A DNA stretch of 64,000 bases, taken from NCBI RefSeq assembly GCF_024168645.1, contig NZ_JALJWF010000001.1, positions 2,917,501 through 2,981,500 on the forward strand. Direction: 5' to 3'. The notes under the pieces were generated by a model that worked only from the letters and a program-made list of their open reading frames with translations, searched no databases and was not told where the DNA came from. Shown one piece after another: positions 56,054-61,397 of this stretch (position 1 is the first letter of the stretch; every line of letters begins with the position of its first letter). The translations under genes were made by a program, and so were the position numbers. Source of the DNA: Pseudomonas sp. GGS8. GTDB lineage: Bacteria; Pseudomonadota; Gammaproteobacteria; Pseudomonadales; Pseudomonadaceae.

Positions 56054-56392
56054 TCAGCGGCGTGTCAGTGGCTGCTGAGCAAACTTCACACCCGCCAAAC
56101 CATGGGCAATCAACGCGCGGATATTGCCGTGGTCGCTGCCTTCGGGCGTGGCCAGCACCGAACGGTAATGTTCACCGAACGCCAACAGCGCTTCTTCATC
56201 GCTCAAACCTTCCAGCAACGCCAGGCCCAGGGTCTTGCACGAGCCTTCGTTCTGCCCGGCTGCGTTTTCCACGCCGCCGTTGTTGAAAGCCTGAGGCTGG
56301 TAGTCATAACCGGCGGCAATGAACGCCAGGGTGTCGGCGAAAACGTGTTCGCCGCTGTTGAGACTGGCGCGCAGGGTGTTCAAATCACTCAT
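56054..56392 (-). CDS. HopJ-family protein
   Basis: A 112 aa protein of the HopJ family. The name comes from a P. syringae type III effector candidate. Features seen are FIAAGYDYQPQAFNNGG, then NEGSCKTLGLALLEGLSDEE, and a C-terminal HGNIRALIAHGLAGVKF. It is the last gene of the folM-folE-folX-DUF1244 cluster and overlaps DUF1244 by eight bases. A metabolic or housekeeping role linked to pterins is more likely than secretion. No type III machinery or hrp box is nearby. Confidence 0.82.
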   Translation of the reverse strand: MSDLNTLRASLNSGEHVFADTLAFIAAGYDYQPQAFNNGGVENAAGQNEGSCKTLGLALLEGLSDEEALLAFGEHYRSVLATPEGSDHGNIRALIAHGLAGVKFAQQPLTRR

Positions 56393-56749: not shown

Positions 56750-57121
56750 TCAACGGCTCGCGGCCAGGGTAATCGACACCGACTCGGCGAAGCGCAACGC
56801 GTGGGGCTTGTCGACTTCGACTTCGGCGTACAGCACCGACTCGTTGGCCATGACCAGGTCCAGCAACTCCTGGGTCAGGCGCTCGAGCAGGGCGAAGCGA
56901 TTGCCTTCTACGTGGGCAATGATCGCCTTGGTGATGGTGCGGTAGTTCAGCGCGTGATCGATGTCGTTGTCACGCACGGCGTCCTGGGCGGCGTACAGGA
57001 TGGTCAGGTTGATCAGCACATCCTGCTTGTTGAGGATTTCGTCCTCGTTGATCCCGATGAAAGTTCGCAAACACAGGTCCTTGACCCGGATGCGTGCCAT
57101 TCCTGGTTGAAGTTGTGGCAT
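56750..57121 (-). CDS. folX: dihydromonapterin/dihydroneopterin-family epimerase FolX
   Basis: A 123 aa protein of the FolB/FolX family. FolX epimerises 7,8-dihydroneopterin triphosphate to dihydromonapterin triphosphate; FolB is the related aldolase of folate synthesis. [18 protein letters not shown] and [17 protein letters not shown] are family motifs. Placement beside folE and folM points to FolX and tetrahydromonapterin synthesis. The ATG at 57121 is two bases after the folE stop, so the genes are coupled. Confidence 0.85.
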
Positions 57122-57123
57122 TG

Positions 57124-57699
57124 CTACTTGCTCCGTCCAATCAATTGCAGGAACTCCTGGCGGGTGTTGCTCGACTCGCGGAAGGCGCCGAGCATCACCG
57201 AGGTGTTCATGGTCGAATTCTGTTTCTCGACGCCGCGCATCATCATGCACATGTGCTGGGCTTCGATGACCACCCCGACACCGGCCGCATCGGTCACTTG
57301 CTGCACGGCTTCGGCGATTTGCCGGGTGAGGTTCTCCTGGATTTGCAGGCGGCGGGCGAACATATCCACAAGCCGTGCGATCTTCGACAGGCCCAGCACC
57401 TTGCCCGTTGGAATATAAGCCACATGCGCCTTCCCGATGAAGGGCAGCATGTGATGTTCACACAGCGAGTACAACTCGATGTTGTCGACAATGATCATTT
57501 CATCGTTATCGGAGGCGAACAGCGCGCCGTTGACGATCTCTTCGACACTCTGTTCGTAACCATGACACAGGTATTGCATCGCCTTGGCGGCGCGCACCGG
57601 GGTGTCTTGCAGCCCTTCGCGGTCGGGGTTTTCACCGAGGCCGATGAGGATCTCGCGATAGCTCTGGGAAAGGGCGTTCTGGGGCAGGGATAACGTCAT
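57124..57699 (-). CDS. folE: GTP cyclohydrolase I FolE
   Basis: FolE, 191 aa, type I GTP cyclohydrolase that makes dihydroneopterin triphosphate. The zinc and catalytic residues lie in [20 protein letters not shown] (Cys and two His, near residues 80-84) and in [15 protein letters not shown] (Cys near 152). Length is typical. It sits 23 bases after folM and feeds the FolX and FolM steps. Confidence 0.96.
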
Positions 57700-57722: not shown

Positions 57723-58433
57723 TTATTTGACGTGCCGTCCGCCATTGACGGTCAGGGTCGTGCCGGTGACATAAGGGTTGTCGAGCAAATAGCGCAGGCT
57801 CTGGTAGATCACTTCGCTGCCGGGCTCGATGCTCAGTGCGGATTTGGCCAGGACCCTGGCGCGGTACGCCGCGTCGTCGTCGGGATTGAACAGTAGCAGG
57901 GCTGGCGCGATACCGTTGACCTTGATGTCTGGTGCGTACTTGGCGGCAAAGGACAGGGTCAGGCTGTCGAGCCCGGCTTTGCTTGCGCAGTAGCCGATGT
58001 GCTTGCTGCTGCCTTTGCGGGTCACGTCATCGCTGATGTGCACGATGTCGGCGGGGCTTGAGCGTCTGAGCAAATCTGAACAGTGCAGGTTGATCAGGTA
58101 GGGCGCCAGCATGTGCACGCTGAACATGCGGGTGAAGGCTTCGACTTCGGCGCCTGGGGTTTCGGCCAGCCATTCGGAGGCGTTATGGACAATCGCCCGC
58201 AGGCTGTCGGTGTGGTTCTTCAGTTCGCCGATGAACGCGAGAATTCCGGCCTCGCTGGAAAAGTCCGCGAACACCGCTGTCGCTCCCAGGTCGCGCAGTG
58301 TCTGTACGCCGGGGCGTTCGCTGCGGTAGCTGAAAATGACCGGTTGGCCGTCTTCGAGCAAACGCTGCGCACAGTGCAGGCCGACACGCTGGCCGGCACC
58401 GGTGATGAGGATGGGGGCTGCGGAAGAGGTCAT
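57723..58433 (-). CDS. folM: dihydromonapterin reductase FolM
   Basis: A short-chain dehydrogenase of 236 aa, FolM type, reducing dihydromonapterin (and dihydrofolate weakly). The Rossmann motif is [17 protein letters not shown]. The catalytic Tyr-x3-Lys is in [14 protein letters not shown] (about 147-160). The end [16 protein letters not shown] is typical. In P. aeruginosa folM, folE and folX are also adjacent, and tetrahydromonapterin is the cofactor for phenylalanine hydroxylase. Confidence 0.9.
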
Positions 58434-58494
58434 GAACGGCTCGCGTCGCGGTTAGAGCAAAACTATACCAGCGACGGGAGGCGTACACCTACGC

Positions 58495-58525: not shown

Positions 58526-59095
58526 TTATTGATTTTGGGTGGCGGGTTCGGCGGGCAACGGACGTGCCAATGAGGCGTGCAGCCAGCCGGCCAGAAGATG
58601 GGTCGACAGTGGAATGAAGAAATAAACCATCAACGGCGTCAGGCACAGGGTGCTGACGAACACGCGGGTCAGCAATCCCGTTTCAGCCAATAACGGTCCC
58701 AGCACAAAGTTGAACAGCAGGGACACCGGAAAGAACGCCAGCCAGATCGCCACGGCCTGCTTCCAGCGTGGCGGGCGTTGCCCTACCGCACCGAACCAGC
58801 CATCGATGCCACTGACCCGATGCTCCGAAGGGTGGGCAAACAGATTGCTGCCGCGTCCCAGCCAAGCGGTACGCGACGCGGAATGCTCCCAGGCGTGCAG
58901 CGTCTGCTCGTCGGCGAAGCGGAAAATAATCTGGAATTCGTCATCGTCGGGGGGCGGAGCGAGTACGCCAGAGCCGAGATAACCGGGGAAGTCGGTGGCC
59001 AATTGTTCGCCTTCGCGCAACCAGGCCATCAGGTCCTGATAACGCCCATCGGCGACACGACGCGCAACCATCAGCGTGACGGGTGAAGTAGACAT
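58526..59095 (-). CDS. antibiotic biosynthesis monooxygenase-domain membrane protein
   Basis: A 189 aa protein. The first 95 residues form an ABM-like dimeric alpha/beta barrel (VTLMVARRVADGRYQDLMAW and FQIIFRFADEQTLHAWEHS). Two transmembrane segments follow at about 118-138 and 142-168. ABM domains often act on quinones or are stress-linked, but here the reaction is unknown. GGAG precedes the ATG at 59095. It is divergent from the MerR/LitR-type regulator, and the shared 208-base region holds two inverted repeats, so it may be that regulator's target. Confidence 0.8.
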   Translation of the reverse strand: MSTSPVTLMVARRVADGRYQDLMAWLREGEQLATDFPGYLGSGVLAPPPDDDEFQIIFRFADEQTLHAWEHSASRTAWLGRGSNLFAHPSEHRVSGIDGWFGAVGQRPPRWKQAVAIWLAFFPVSLLFNFVLGPLLAETGLLTRVFVSTLCLTPLMVYFFIPLSTHLLAGWLHASLARPLPAEPATQNQ

Positions 59096-59206
59096 TGTGT
59101 ATCTCCGTAAGGCAAACGCGTCGCTCCGGATAGGAGTTTCGCCAGGCACAGCGCCGGGGTAGTGGGCTGCGTCTTGGGACAGGCAAGGATTATTCCTGAT
59201 TGTGTC

Positions 59207-59222
59207 TGGAACTTTCGTTCCA
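59207..59222. promoter_or_regulatory. inverted repeat 1, candidate operator of the LitR-type regulator
   Basis: TGGAAC-TTTC-GTTCCA, a perfect 6-bp palindrome with a 4-base centre. It lies in the region shared by the divergent ABM-domain gene and the LitR-type regulator gene, 82 bases before the regulator start. Confidence 0.5.
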
Positions 59223-59227
59223 ATTAG

Positions 59228-59244
59228 TTCAACGACGTGTTGAA
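59228..59244. promoter_or_regulatory. inverted repeat 2, candidate operator of the LitR-type regulator
   Basis: TTCAAC-GACGT-GTTGAA, a perfect 6-bp palindrome with a 5-base centre, 5 bases after repeat 1. The centres of the two repeats are about 21 bases apart, near two helical turns, so dimers could bind side by side. Confidence 0.5.
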
Positions 59245-59303
59245 TATCACTGGGGTATGAGAGTAAAAATGTATCAAAATATAAATATGGATCCAAAATC
59301 CCC

Positions 59304-60257
59304 GTGCTGACCGACATTGCGCCTGGCTTGCCCCCCATTACCTCCCTGATTCGAGAAGAGCTGTTCCCGATTCGTGAGGTTGCGCGCATGACAGGGGTCA
59401 ACCCGGTTACGCTTCGAGCCTGGGAGCGACGCTACGGGCTGATACAGCCCACCCGCACCGAAAGCGGGCACCGTTTGTATTCGATGATCGATATTGAGCG
59501 TGTGCGCAGCATCCTCGGCTGGATCGAGCGCGGTGTCGCGGTCAGCAAAGTTGGCAAGATACTGGCCAAGACCGAACCGCTCCAGGTGCTGGAGCGGATC
59601 ATTCCCGACGAACTCGTTCAAGTCGACTACGGCCAATGGCAGCAGCAGGTCAAGGCGGCAGTGAGTGTTTTTGACGAAGTTCAACTCGAGCATGTCTACG
59701 GTCAGATTTTTTCCAGTTATCCGCTGACGGTTGTGTTCCAGGACATCCTGATTCCGATCTGGAAGCTATTGCTACAACGCCATGATGCATTCGGTCAGAC
59801 CAGCGAGTGGCTTTTTCTGGATGGCTTTCTGCGTTCTCGAGTATTGCAACGCCTGCTGCTGGTACGTGTCATGCAGCCGCGACGAGTGATTGTCTGCGCC
59901 TTGGCCGACCAATGTCATGAGCTCGAAGTGTTGGTCACGGCGCTGTATCTGAGCAGCATCGATTCGGCTATTCAGTTGTTGGCGATCGGGCAGCCCTTTG
60001 ATGAGTTGATCCTGGTCTGTGAGAAGATCAAGCCCAGGGCACTGGTGCTGATTTCCAATCATGTACCGGCTGCCGAACTGCCTCGACGTTTGAACCGTCT
60101 GGCCATGGGGCTGGATTGTCAGCTGTTTCTGGCCGGGGATGCGTCCGACCTGGCGCAAGAGAGTCTGGCCGGGTCGTCGGTGGGTTGCCTTGGAAACGAG
60201 GGGGTGGGGATGCGCCAGCGTCTGAAACAGTTCCTGGCGGGAAACCTGGATACCTGA
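59304..60257 (+). CDS. MerR-family regulator, class II LitR/CarH-like
   Basis: A 317 aa regulator. An N-terminal MerR winged helix (about 22-90) carries IREVARMTGVNPVTLRAWER and ESGHRLYS. A helical bundle (about 110-190) and a B12-binding-like Rossmann domain (about 193-285) follow. Class I LitR/CarH uses adenosyl-B12 as light sensor through Wx9EH and ExHxxG motifs. Here the first is lost (His160...Leu170-Phe171) and the second is Gln203-Cys-His205-Glu-Leu-Glu208. This matches the B12-free class II LitR proteins described in Pseudomonas. The GTG start has a poor ribosome-binding site. A LOV photoreceptor gene is 1 kb away. Confidence 0.83.
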   Translation: MLTDIAPGLPPITSLIREELFPIREVARMTGVNPVTLRAWERRYGLIQPTRTESGHRLYSMIDIERVRSILGWIERGVAVSKVGKILAKTEPLQVLERIIPDELVQVDYGQWQQQVKAAVSVFDEVQLEHVYGQIFSSYPLTVVFQDILIPIWKLLLQRHDAFGQTSEWLFLDGFLRSRVLQRLLLVRVMQPRRVIVCALADQCHELEVLVTALYLSSIDSAIQLLAIGQPFDELILVCEKIKPRALVLISNHVPAAELPRRLNRLAMGLDCQLFLAGDASDLAQESLAGSSVGCLGNEGVGMRQRLKQFLAGNLDT

Positions 60258-60260
60258 GAT

Positions 60261-60866
60261 TCAAATATGCAAAGCAGGATGGGTCAGGCGATGTTGTTGA
60301 AGGATGTACTGACGCAGACGCTCGGTTTCGTCCTTGTCACTCTGGCTCAACTCGTAGGCGTAGAAACCTTGCTCGGTCTCACGCTCCAAGGTGCCGCGCA
60401 ACGCAATCCGCTCATAGCCTGACGGGCTGAACCACAATGCGAAGTGCTTTGGCGCTTTGGTCTTGTTGCGAACTTCCAGCAAAACCCCTTTGAACGATAT
60501 TTCGTGCACCCACATCGTGCCGGGTTGCCCCTTGGCATTTTCCAGAGCCACTGGCTCTTCGAGCGCCAGGCGCCATGGCCGAATCATTGGCCCGTCTTCA
60601 TAAATGCTGGGAACGCCGAGGCGTAGATGCATTGCGTGAAATTCATCTTCCACCAGGTGCAGCGGGAAGGTCATTTGCTGATTTTCGAAAGTGGCATGGA
60701 TGGTGACTTGCTCATGAGCGGCCAGGCGTGTGAGCAAGTCACGGATTTGCGAGCCGCCGTTGACGAGCAAACTCGACGTCGCATCCCGCACATTGAGTTG
60801 CGGGTTGTGTTGCATGGTCTGGATAAAGTCCAGCTCATCCTGGGTCAGGAGTGCGTCGCGCTGCAT
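60261..60866 (-). CDS. PilZ-like domain protein
   Basis: A 201 aa protein resembling YcgR/PilZ-domain proteins. An N-terminal region (about 1-85) is YcgR-N-like. A beta-rich region follows with RPWRL (about 96-100), HEISFKG (about 121-127), and a C-terminal helix RLRQYILQQHR. The c-di-GMP motif RxxxR...[DN]xSxxG is only partly kept: RPWR has one residue fewer, and Glu122 replaces Asp/Asn. Binding of c-di-GMP is therefore uncertain. It ends 3 bases from the convergent LitR gene and lies 54 bases downstream of the LOV gene, possibly in one operon with it. Confidence 0.68.
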   Translation of the reverse strand: MQRDALLTQDELDFIQTMQHNPQLNVRDATSSLLVNGGSQIRDLLTRLAAHEQVTIHATFENQQMTFPLHLVEDEFHAMHLRLGVPSIYEDGPMIRPWRLALEEPVALENAKGQPGTMWVHEISFKGVLLEVRNKTKAPKHFALWFSPSGYERIALRGTLERETEQGFYAYELSQSDKDETERLRQYILQQHRLTHPALHI

Positions 60867-60920
60867 GATTTGCTCGAAAGAAATAATTACAAAGTCATCG
60901 GTGATTGTAGTAAATGACCA

Positions 60921-61397
60921 CTAATTCGCAGATTGGTTTGAGCCGTTCGTCGATTTGAGATCAGCAAGTTCTGCCTGTACCTCGGCCAATTGCGCTTCCA
61001 GCTGTGCGACTCGCTGCTGTGCCTTGACCTGAACCGTGACGTCTTTCTGCACCCCGACAAAATAGGTTTGTCCGTCGTGCGGGTTTTTTACCGTGGAAAG
61101 CGACAGTTCGTTCCAGAACGGGGTGCCGTCCTTGCGGTAATTCTTGAGAATTTCCCGGCAGGAACCGCCATTGTCCAACGCTTGGCGAATCAATGCGAGG
61201 GCGGGCTGATCCCGGTCTCCTGCCTGCAAAAAACGGCAATCCTGGTAGAGGATTTCTTCGTTGGTATAGCCCGTCAGGCGTTCGAATGCCGGGTTTACGT
61301 AAATCAGGATATTGTCCTGTTCGCCTTCCTTTTCGGCAATCACGATGCCGTCGTTGGACGCGTCGATCACCATTTGCAGCAGTGAGGCATTAATCAT
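60921..61397 (-). CDS. short LOV-domain blue-light photoreceptor
   Basis: A 158 aa short LOV protein without an effector domain. The photoactive Cys54 is in YQDCRFLQ (51-58). Flavin-contact residues Gln58, Asn86 (KNYRKDG), Asn96 (FWNEL) and Gln117 (GVQKDV) are all present, so an FMN-cysteinyl photocycle is expected. A C-terminal coiled-coil helix (about 125-148) would mediate dimerisation. It closely resembles the short LOV proteins PpSB1/PpSB2 of P. putida. AAGGA precedes the ATG at 61397. The PilZ-like gene follows on the same strand. Confidence 0.93.
   Translation of the reverse strand: MINASLLQMVIDASNDGIVIAEKEGEQDNILIYVNPAFERLTGYTNEEILYQDCRFLQAGDRDQPALALIRQALDNGGSCREILKNYRKDGTPFWNELSLSTVKNPHDGQTYFVGVQKDVTVQVKAQQRVAQLEAQLAEVQAELADLKSTNGSNQSAN

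Follow-up and report, generated by a model that had tools for sequence, protein, structure and literature searches.

Pseudomonas sp. GGS8 carries neighboring genes for a LitR-type regulator of the MerR family and a short LOV photoreceptor, in a 64,000-nucleotide stretch of contig NZ_JALJWF010000001.1 (positions 2,917,501 to 2,981,500; hereafter, the window). We conclude that this locus very probably encodes the blue-light switch in which Pseudomonas pairs a short LOV with a class II LitR, and that it corresponds to the PmSB-LOV/PmlR2 pair of Pseudomonas mendocina. The same parts, their co-inheritance, and the positions of operators are observed here. The switch is already published: the pairing recorded in an earlier note, made from the sequence alone, is confirmed, and its central idea is correct but not new. 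Comparative genomics confirms that the published two-protein switch is widespread in Pseudomonas and inherited as a unit (81 of the 89 genomes sampled), and attention moves from the neighboring genes to a distant photoprotection locus, which holds a second regulator, LitR1. The published model is also incomplete: some genomes have LitR1 operators yet lack a short LOV, and some short LOVs are orphans without a nearby LitR.

The switch was described by Maruyama et al. (2022) in P. mendocina NBRC 14162 (PMC9758184). There, PmlR2, a class II LitR, is the effector of the neighboring PmSB-LOV. Illuminated PmSB-LOV forms a complex with the N-terminal helix-turn-helix (HTH) part of PmlR2, and the photoactive cysteine is needed; DNA binding is lost by BIAcore, repression is relieved in vitro, and light-responsive genes are derepressed. 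The gene set comprises pmlR2, PME15565, pmSB-LOV, folM, folE, folX, and a hypothetical gene, and the pmlR2-PME15565-pmSB-LOV cluster is stated to be conserved in Pseudomonas spp.

By analogy, the switch in GGS8 would work as follows. In the dark, LitR would occupy operators of the TGTACA-N12-TGTACA type over sigma-70 promoters, resulting in repression. Blue light would then produce an adduct between Cys54 and flavin mononucleotide in the LOV protein; the lit LOV would bind the HTH domain of LitR, which would leave the DNA; and dark recovery of LOV would bring repression back. The main targets here would be a row of genes for RudS (a tRNA desulfidase), LitR1, and a DNA photolyase, together with the FAD-oxidoreductase gene before this row. 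We infer that both LitRs of this strain answer to the single short LOV.

The regulator of the window displays two features of a class II LitR: an N-terminal MerR HTH (MerR_1, 57.7 bits versus a cut-off of 21.6, E 1.3e-15) and a C-terminal half that is related to CarH but lacks the B12-contact motifs. Its best solved relatives are CarH-type chains, namely 3whp (residues 11-249), which we take to be a CarH, and 5c8d (residues 15-249). Alignment to CarH confirms the claim that the adenosyl-B12 motifs are lost: at Wx9EH, the Trp lies opposite Arg and EH opposite EW, and at ExHxxG, the GERHEIG of CarH lies opposite DQCHELE. The remaining His of this last stretch varies across 22 homologues chosen from 120 listed, the majority reading DQCRELE, with Arg in its place. 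No Pfam B12 domain was found in LitR at E<=1. An AlphaFold model of LitR, with a mean predicted local distance difference test score of 53.7, was set aside. As a side observation, the RudS paper labels class II LitRs as adenosyl-B12-dependent (PMC11417400); this label conflicts with PMC9758184 and with the lost B12 motifs of LitR.

The photoreceptor resembles solved short LOV-type sensory box proteins along its whole length, the best being 7yx0 (3.4e-74). It holds Cys54 (in YQDCRFLQ), R55, Q58, R62, N86, N96, and Q117, which we take to be the flavin-contact residues; the description of a complete short LOV with all such residues therefore stands. There is no effector domain fused to it, only PAS-type Pfam matches in 158 aa. 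A search of its own genome (6.72 Mb, one contig) gave one close short-LOV match; none of the other eight exceeds 34% identity, and all lie in frames of 569-1263 aa, the next best (34%) in one of 936 aa.

Across the genus, the 2 proteins are inherited together. A short LOV better than E 1e-40, a line fixed after the first genus search, is present in 349 of 398 Pseudomonas genomes by hand count; the other 49 gave weak matches. In an even subset of 89 genomes, 81 carry the LOV together with a LitR of the window's type or of a second type, 8 carry neither, and none has one alone (Fisher p 1.4e-11, uncorrected for ancestry). The boundary separating these LitRs from LitR1 was drawn after seeing the scores, where they drop from 197 to 152 bits; LitR1 was counted among the matches listed, and a genome whose LitR is in two pieces (G034) was counted once. 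Some LitR at 1e-25 is found in all 89 genomes.

The pairing is also physical. A LitR lies within 5 kb of the LOV at 84 of 87 LOV places, convergent in 77 and divergent in 7; the divergent partners belong to the second type, which shares 39-42% identity with the LitR of the window. Of the remaining 3 places, that of G069 has its LitR on a separate contig, and those of G038 and G049 are orphan LOVs. Four genomes hold two pairs (G057, G072, G077, and G081), and in them every LOV has a LitR to itself. Within the fetched stretches of 80 named loci, a LitR-like gene is present in 78 and a gene for a 201-aa PilZ-like protein in 66; both loci that lack LitR are on contigs of Ectothiorhodospiraceae, one of which ends short beside the LOV. 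The neighborhood is thus conserved in Pseudomonas, at 84 of 87 LOV places and with 81 plus 8 of 89 genomes concordant, and LOV-LitR pairing is ordinary for the genus. The proposal of the earlier note that the neighboring LOV supplies the light input of a B12-blind LitR is upheld by this exceptionless co-inheritance and by the P. mendocina biochemistry of PMC9758184.

The probable targets of the pair lie elsewhere in the genome. GGS8 has two LitRs, and LitR1 is situated 2.1 Mb from that of the window (LitR2, where the two must be told apart), at G000:C1:843000-850600 (L009 5095-12599). Here, a row of genes in one direction begins with one of the FAD amine-oxidoreductase type and continues with RudS (which has 2-thiouracil desulfurase and DUF1722 domains), LitR1, a photolyase (528 bits versus a cut-off of 506), and an SDR gene; divergent from the row are a TIGR01777 gene and ferrochelatase. 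Candidate sites of the class II LitR operator pattern, T(G/A)TACA-N12-TGTA(C/T)A, stand at the expected promoters: a perfect TATACA-N12-TGTACA upstream of RudS, followed after 50 bp by another site with one mismatch, and an 11/12 match upstream of the oxidoreductase gene, resembling the two-site layout published for P6650. When the LitR1 loci examined are taken together, 9 of 10 have a 12/12 match at RudS, and 6 of 7 have an 11/12 match at the oxidoreductase gene. The whole genome holds 21 operator-like sites with at most one mismatch, versus 8 in the reversed control; 3 are at the LitR1 locus, and of 9 inspected among the 18 elsewhere, 6 lie inside open reading frames. Judged from these motifs, the RudS-LitR1-photolyase row and the oxidoreductase gene are the probable main targets of the LOV-LitR pair, such that the main light targets, previously sought in the flanking genes, are likely to be 2.1 Mb away. 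Separately, two near-identical operator-like sites at G000:C1:308214 and 309453 (L118), with 1.2 kb between them, each mark the start of one of two neighboring open reading frames of similar size; this is probably a duplicated upstream region.

Beyond the genus, an order-level search finds a short LOV at 1e-40 in 15 of 145 genomes, own genome included. A LitR-like gene is in the fetched stretch at 10 of 14 LOV loci outside the genus; none was found in that stretch at the other 4 (L110-L113, one family). At L114, the LitR is 6 kb from the LOV, with 30% identity. Six Stutzerimonas-type loci (L196-L200 and L205) hold the LOV with LitR, ferrochelatase, and RudS, five of them with folE-folX too. 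In three genomes of another family (L115-L117), RudS and a LitR1-like gene adjoin the LOV, and two of these stretches also hold a photolyase; at L204 and L206, the LOV shares its stretch with LitR-like and photolyase-like genes. Such stretches, where the LOV stands with RudS, LitR, or photolyase outside the window's group, tie the parts together.

Other genomes hold only some of the parts. Eight lack both the short LOV and LitR2 (G013, G018, G020, G026, G027, G028, G054, and G056; loci L080-L087), and all 8 keep LitR1, RudS, and photolyase, with a perfect RudS operator in 7. Since perfect operators are kept before the RudS-LitR1-photolyase row without a short LOV or LitR2, LitR1 would be driven there by another input. 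In genomes that have one, a LOV protein of several domains may provide this input, or something else may do so: a longer protein with the canonical GxNCRFLQ is among the matches at 1e-12 in 6 of the 8 genomes, and none was seen among the matches at this line in G020 and G026. That class II LitR serves as a socket for different photoreceptors, LitR1 in LOV-less lineages being driven by another of them or by other input, is a tentative idea that we rate as rather unlikely. The orphan short LOVs (L048, 7737-8174, and L049, 7242-7682) come from G038 and G049, which also hold a normal pair. Their neighbors, as read, include no clear partner; the orphan of G049 (L049) is set among PAS-GGDEF and EAL genes and a gene that, by eye, is chemoreceptor-like.

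A broader reading would make the whole neighborhood one light module, where LitR and LOV control the flanking fol, ABM-domain, and PilZ-like genes, extending the response to pterins, the membrane, and cyclic di-GMP (c-di-GMP). It draws on close packing: LitR, PilZ-like, LOV, and flavodoxin genes stand side by side in 29 of 29 loci of the closest relatives, where the PilZ-like protein is generally the most conserved (88-99.5%, versus 84-97% for LOV and 74-96% for the LitR part). However, the PilZ-like gene is kept in each of the 8 genomes that lack LOV and LitR2 and missing in 3 that keep the pair, parting from them in 11 of 89; in three more (G024, G025, and G065), it lies away from the LOV. 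Among the 8 LOV-less genomes, moreover, the ABM gene is kept beside the PilZ-like gene in 4, and a folM of at least 75% identity is kept in 2. Upstream of the window's ABM gene, no LitR operator rises above background (best 9 of 12, shuffle p 0.45); the candidate was rejected, and the proposed link of light to membrane chemistry is not supported. Of 24 loci scanned, L063 alone has an 11/12 match upstream of this gene (208 bp, shuffle p 0.02). In the P. mendocina study, transcripts of pmlR2 (1.4-1.5x) and pmSB-LOV (0.9-1.1x) themselves barely respond to light (PMC9758184). We regard the one-module reading as improbable.

The 201-aa protein is, by its predicted structure, a divergent PilZ fold. 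Pfam gives nothing above cut-off for the protein itself, and its homologue P0135 matches PilZ PF07238 at 27.6 bits versus a cut-off of 22.5. Foldseek places the model with MotI, YcgR, VCA0042, and single PilZ domains at probability 0.99-1.00; two matches are at E<=0.001, and the template modeling (TM) score is 0.3-0.4 over the whole chain, compared with about 0.64 when single PilZ domains (4xrn, for example) are matched. The first 37 residues of the model are mostly unreliable. The c-di-GMP motifs of PilZ are RxxxR and (D/N)xSxxG. In 33 aligned sequences, R96 and R99 are invariant but spaced RxxR (R-P-W-R is kept), and the second motif has Glu first, with Ser and Gly varying; the canonical motifs are thus wanting. 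Given this and the parting of the gene from LOV and LitR, the c-di-GMP link is not supported, and we read the PilZ-like gene as a neighbor with a job of its own, outside the switch. A side observation concerns the C-terminal part of LitR (59604-60257) and the PilZ-like gene, which diverge in parallel beyond controls (partial r 0.56), possibly as a result of the genes abutting.

The one-module reading also draws on the pterin genes. In P. mendocina, light mildly induces folM (2.4-2.5x) and folE (1.6-3.3x), versus 25-33x for phrB and ufaM, and PmlR2 bound to the folM promoter (PMC9758184). In the window, a candidate operator stands 54 bp upstream of the folM ATG, and its GGTATA half runs, by eye, into a -10-like TATAGT. 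None of 150 shuffles of this promoter reached 10 of 12, although such a match is weak alone: patterns with up to 3 mismatches number 28 in the window versus 18.3 expected, and 4 of 100 shuffles reached 28. A survey of 65 named-genome folM promoters, restricted to sites with a second half GNTATA, found TGTACA intact in 6, with one change in 5, and with at least two changes or no site in 54, so that the half-site is degraded in 59 of 65 as it is in the window. A differing scan of 24 loci found the exact TGTACA-N12-GGTATA at folM in 5, among which L047 comes from a genome that has neither LOV nor LitR2. In the window and most of the 65 relatives, the upstream half is eroded and the -10-like half usually kept, probably because it forms part of the -10 box. 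Since the operator is degraded and variable, light control of the pterin genes is doubtful here: folM-folE-folX would be at most a weak target, and the light-pterin link, which has backing in P. mendocina, is weak in this lineage.

Could the LOV and LitR be chance neighbors, the LOV signaling elsewhere and the adjoining LitR constitutive or under another cue? The orphan LOVs of G038 and G049, without a nearby LitR of the window's or second type, and the presence of LitR1 without any short LOV in 8 genomes are what this explanation would lead one to see, but it is at odds with the perfect match in presence and absence, with LOV-LitR adjacency in two orientations, and with the direct LOV-LitR binding reported for P. 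mendocina (PMC9758184); we hold it to be very improbable. Still harder to credit, and almost certainly wrong, is the notion that LitR itself senses cobalamin and light as CarH does: homology to CarH over residues 11-249 speaks for it, against the lost Wx9EH, a degenerate ExHxxG whose His is unconserved in the 22 homologues, the absence of a Pfam B12 match at E<=1, and a PplR light response for which B12 is not required, according to PMC9758184.

Several points weigh against the locus being a working PmSB-LOV/PmlR2 counterpart, the reading that we prefer. The mechanism is shown in P. mendocina only, and that this strain behaves likewise is argued by analogy. Within that study, gel shift and BIAcore disagree on DNA release, and the two-hybrid LOV-LitR signal is light-independent (PMC9758184). 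The four-helix domain PF02607 (B12-binding_2) is reported there for PmlR2 (PMC9758184), and it matches LitR1 of the same genome at 35.8 bits; for LitR it gives no row at E<=1, though the CarH alignment spans the region. The folM operator, as described above, is degraded and highly variable in relatives. Distance co-evolution, computed over the 55 of 80 named loci holding all eight genes, does not discriminate: partial r is 0.28 for LOV-LitR2 versus 0.27 for LOV and the PilZ-like protein, and 0.11 for LOV versus the LitR HTH alone. Finally, position 67 of the LOV protein is Leu, presumably aligned to Arg66 of PpSB1-LOV. Because R66I in PpSB1-LOV makes dark recovery about 100-fold faster (PMC6047819), the photocycle here may be faster than that of PpSB1-LOV.

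The layout of the locus is given in the table below. All of the flanking genes named in the earlier note (folM-folE-folX, ABM, and PilZ-like) are identified, the three fol genes each above its NCBIfam cut-off. The LitR start is GTG, the earliest possible start in frame; the ABM gene probably starts at 59098 rather than 59401, and its product has, by eye, C-terminal hydrophobic stretches. LitR and PilZ-like genes lie tail to tail, their ends three bases apart. The LOV and PilZ-like genes follow one another on a common strand across a 54 bp gap, convergent with LitR, which therefore falls outside the operon of the LOV. LitR and LOV are close, as had been claimed, at somewhat less than the 1 kb given: 663 bp separate the gene ends. 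As a side observation, a small gene at 56054-56392, with the Pfam label HopJ, often neighbors the fol genes across the loci examined; its effector name may mislead.

Table. Features of the light-response locus, in window coordinates.
Feature	Position	Strand	Remarks
folX, dihydroneopterin triphosphate 2'-epimerase	56750..57121	-	NCBIfam 192.7 bits vs cut-off 152; start picked by family match
folE, GTP cyclohydrolase I	57124..57699	-	TIGR00063 250 bits vs cut-off 181.6
folM, dihydromonapterin reductase	57723..58433	-	NCBIfam 358.1 bits vs cut-off 249
Candidate degraded LitR operator 5' of folM	58464..58487	-	TGTACG-N12-GGTATA
ABM-domain gene	58526..59098	-	Pfam 25.0 bits vs cut-off 23.1; divergent from LitR
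Class II LitR-type MerR protein, probable PmlR2 counterpart, B12 motifs lost	59304..60257	+	317 aa
Predicted divergent PilZ-fold (PilZ-like) protein	60261..60866	-	201 aa; closest solved folds MotI, YcgR
Short LOV photoreceptor, Cys54	60921..61397	-	158 aa
Flavodoxin gene, divergent from LOV	from 61501	+	

Known systems share parts of this design. CarH and class I LitR have in common with the LitR of the window the MerR HTH and overall homology; their adenosyl-B12 motifs are missing here. The photoreceptor of the BluR-BluF system is a BLUF protein and not a LOV. BluR-BluF of E. coli, named in PMC9758184, likewise places a MerR-family regulator under a separate blue-light receptor. In P. putida KT2440, PplR1-3 with PpSB1-LOV and PpSB2-LOV are again class II LitRs under short LOV control, with phrB as a target (Sumi et al. 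2020, per PMC9758184); that strain has three LitRs and two LOVs, whereas GGS8 has two LitRs and one LOV. The PmlR2-PmSB-LOV system differs at folM, where P. mendocina has an intact TGTACA-N12-GGTATA 95 bp upstream and GGS8 a degraded TGTACG 54 bp upstream. Its parts recur here: a class II LitR, a short LOV, and a third gene that share one region with folM-folE-folX and a hypothetical gene, and two LitRs with one short LOV, the strongest light genes (in GGS8, the probable main targets) being at the other LitR locus.

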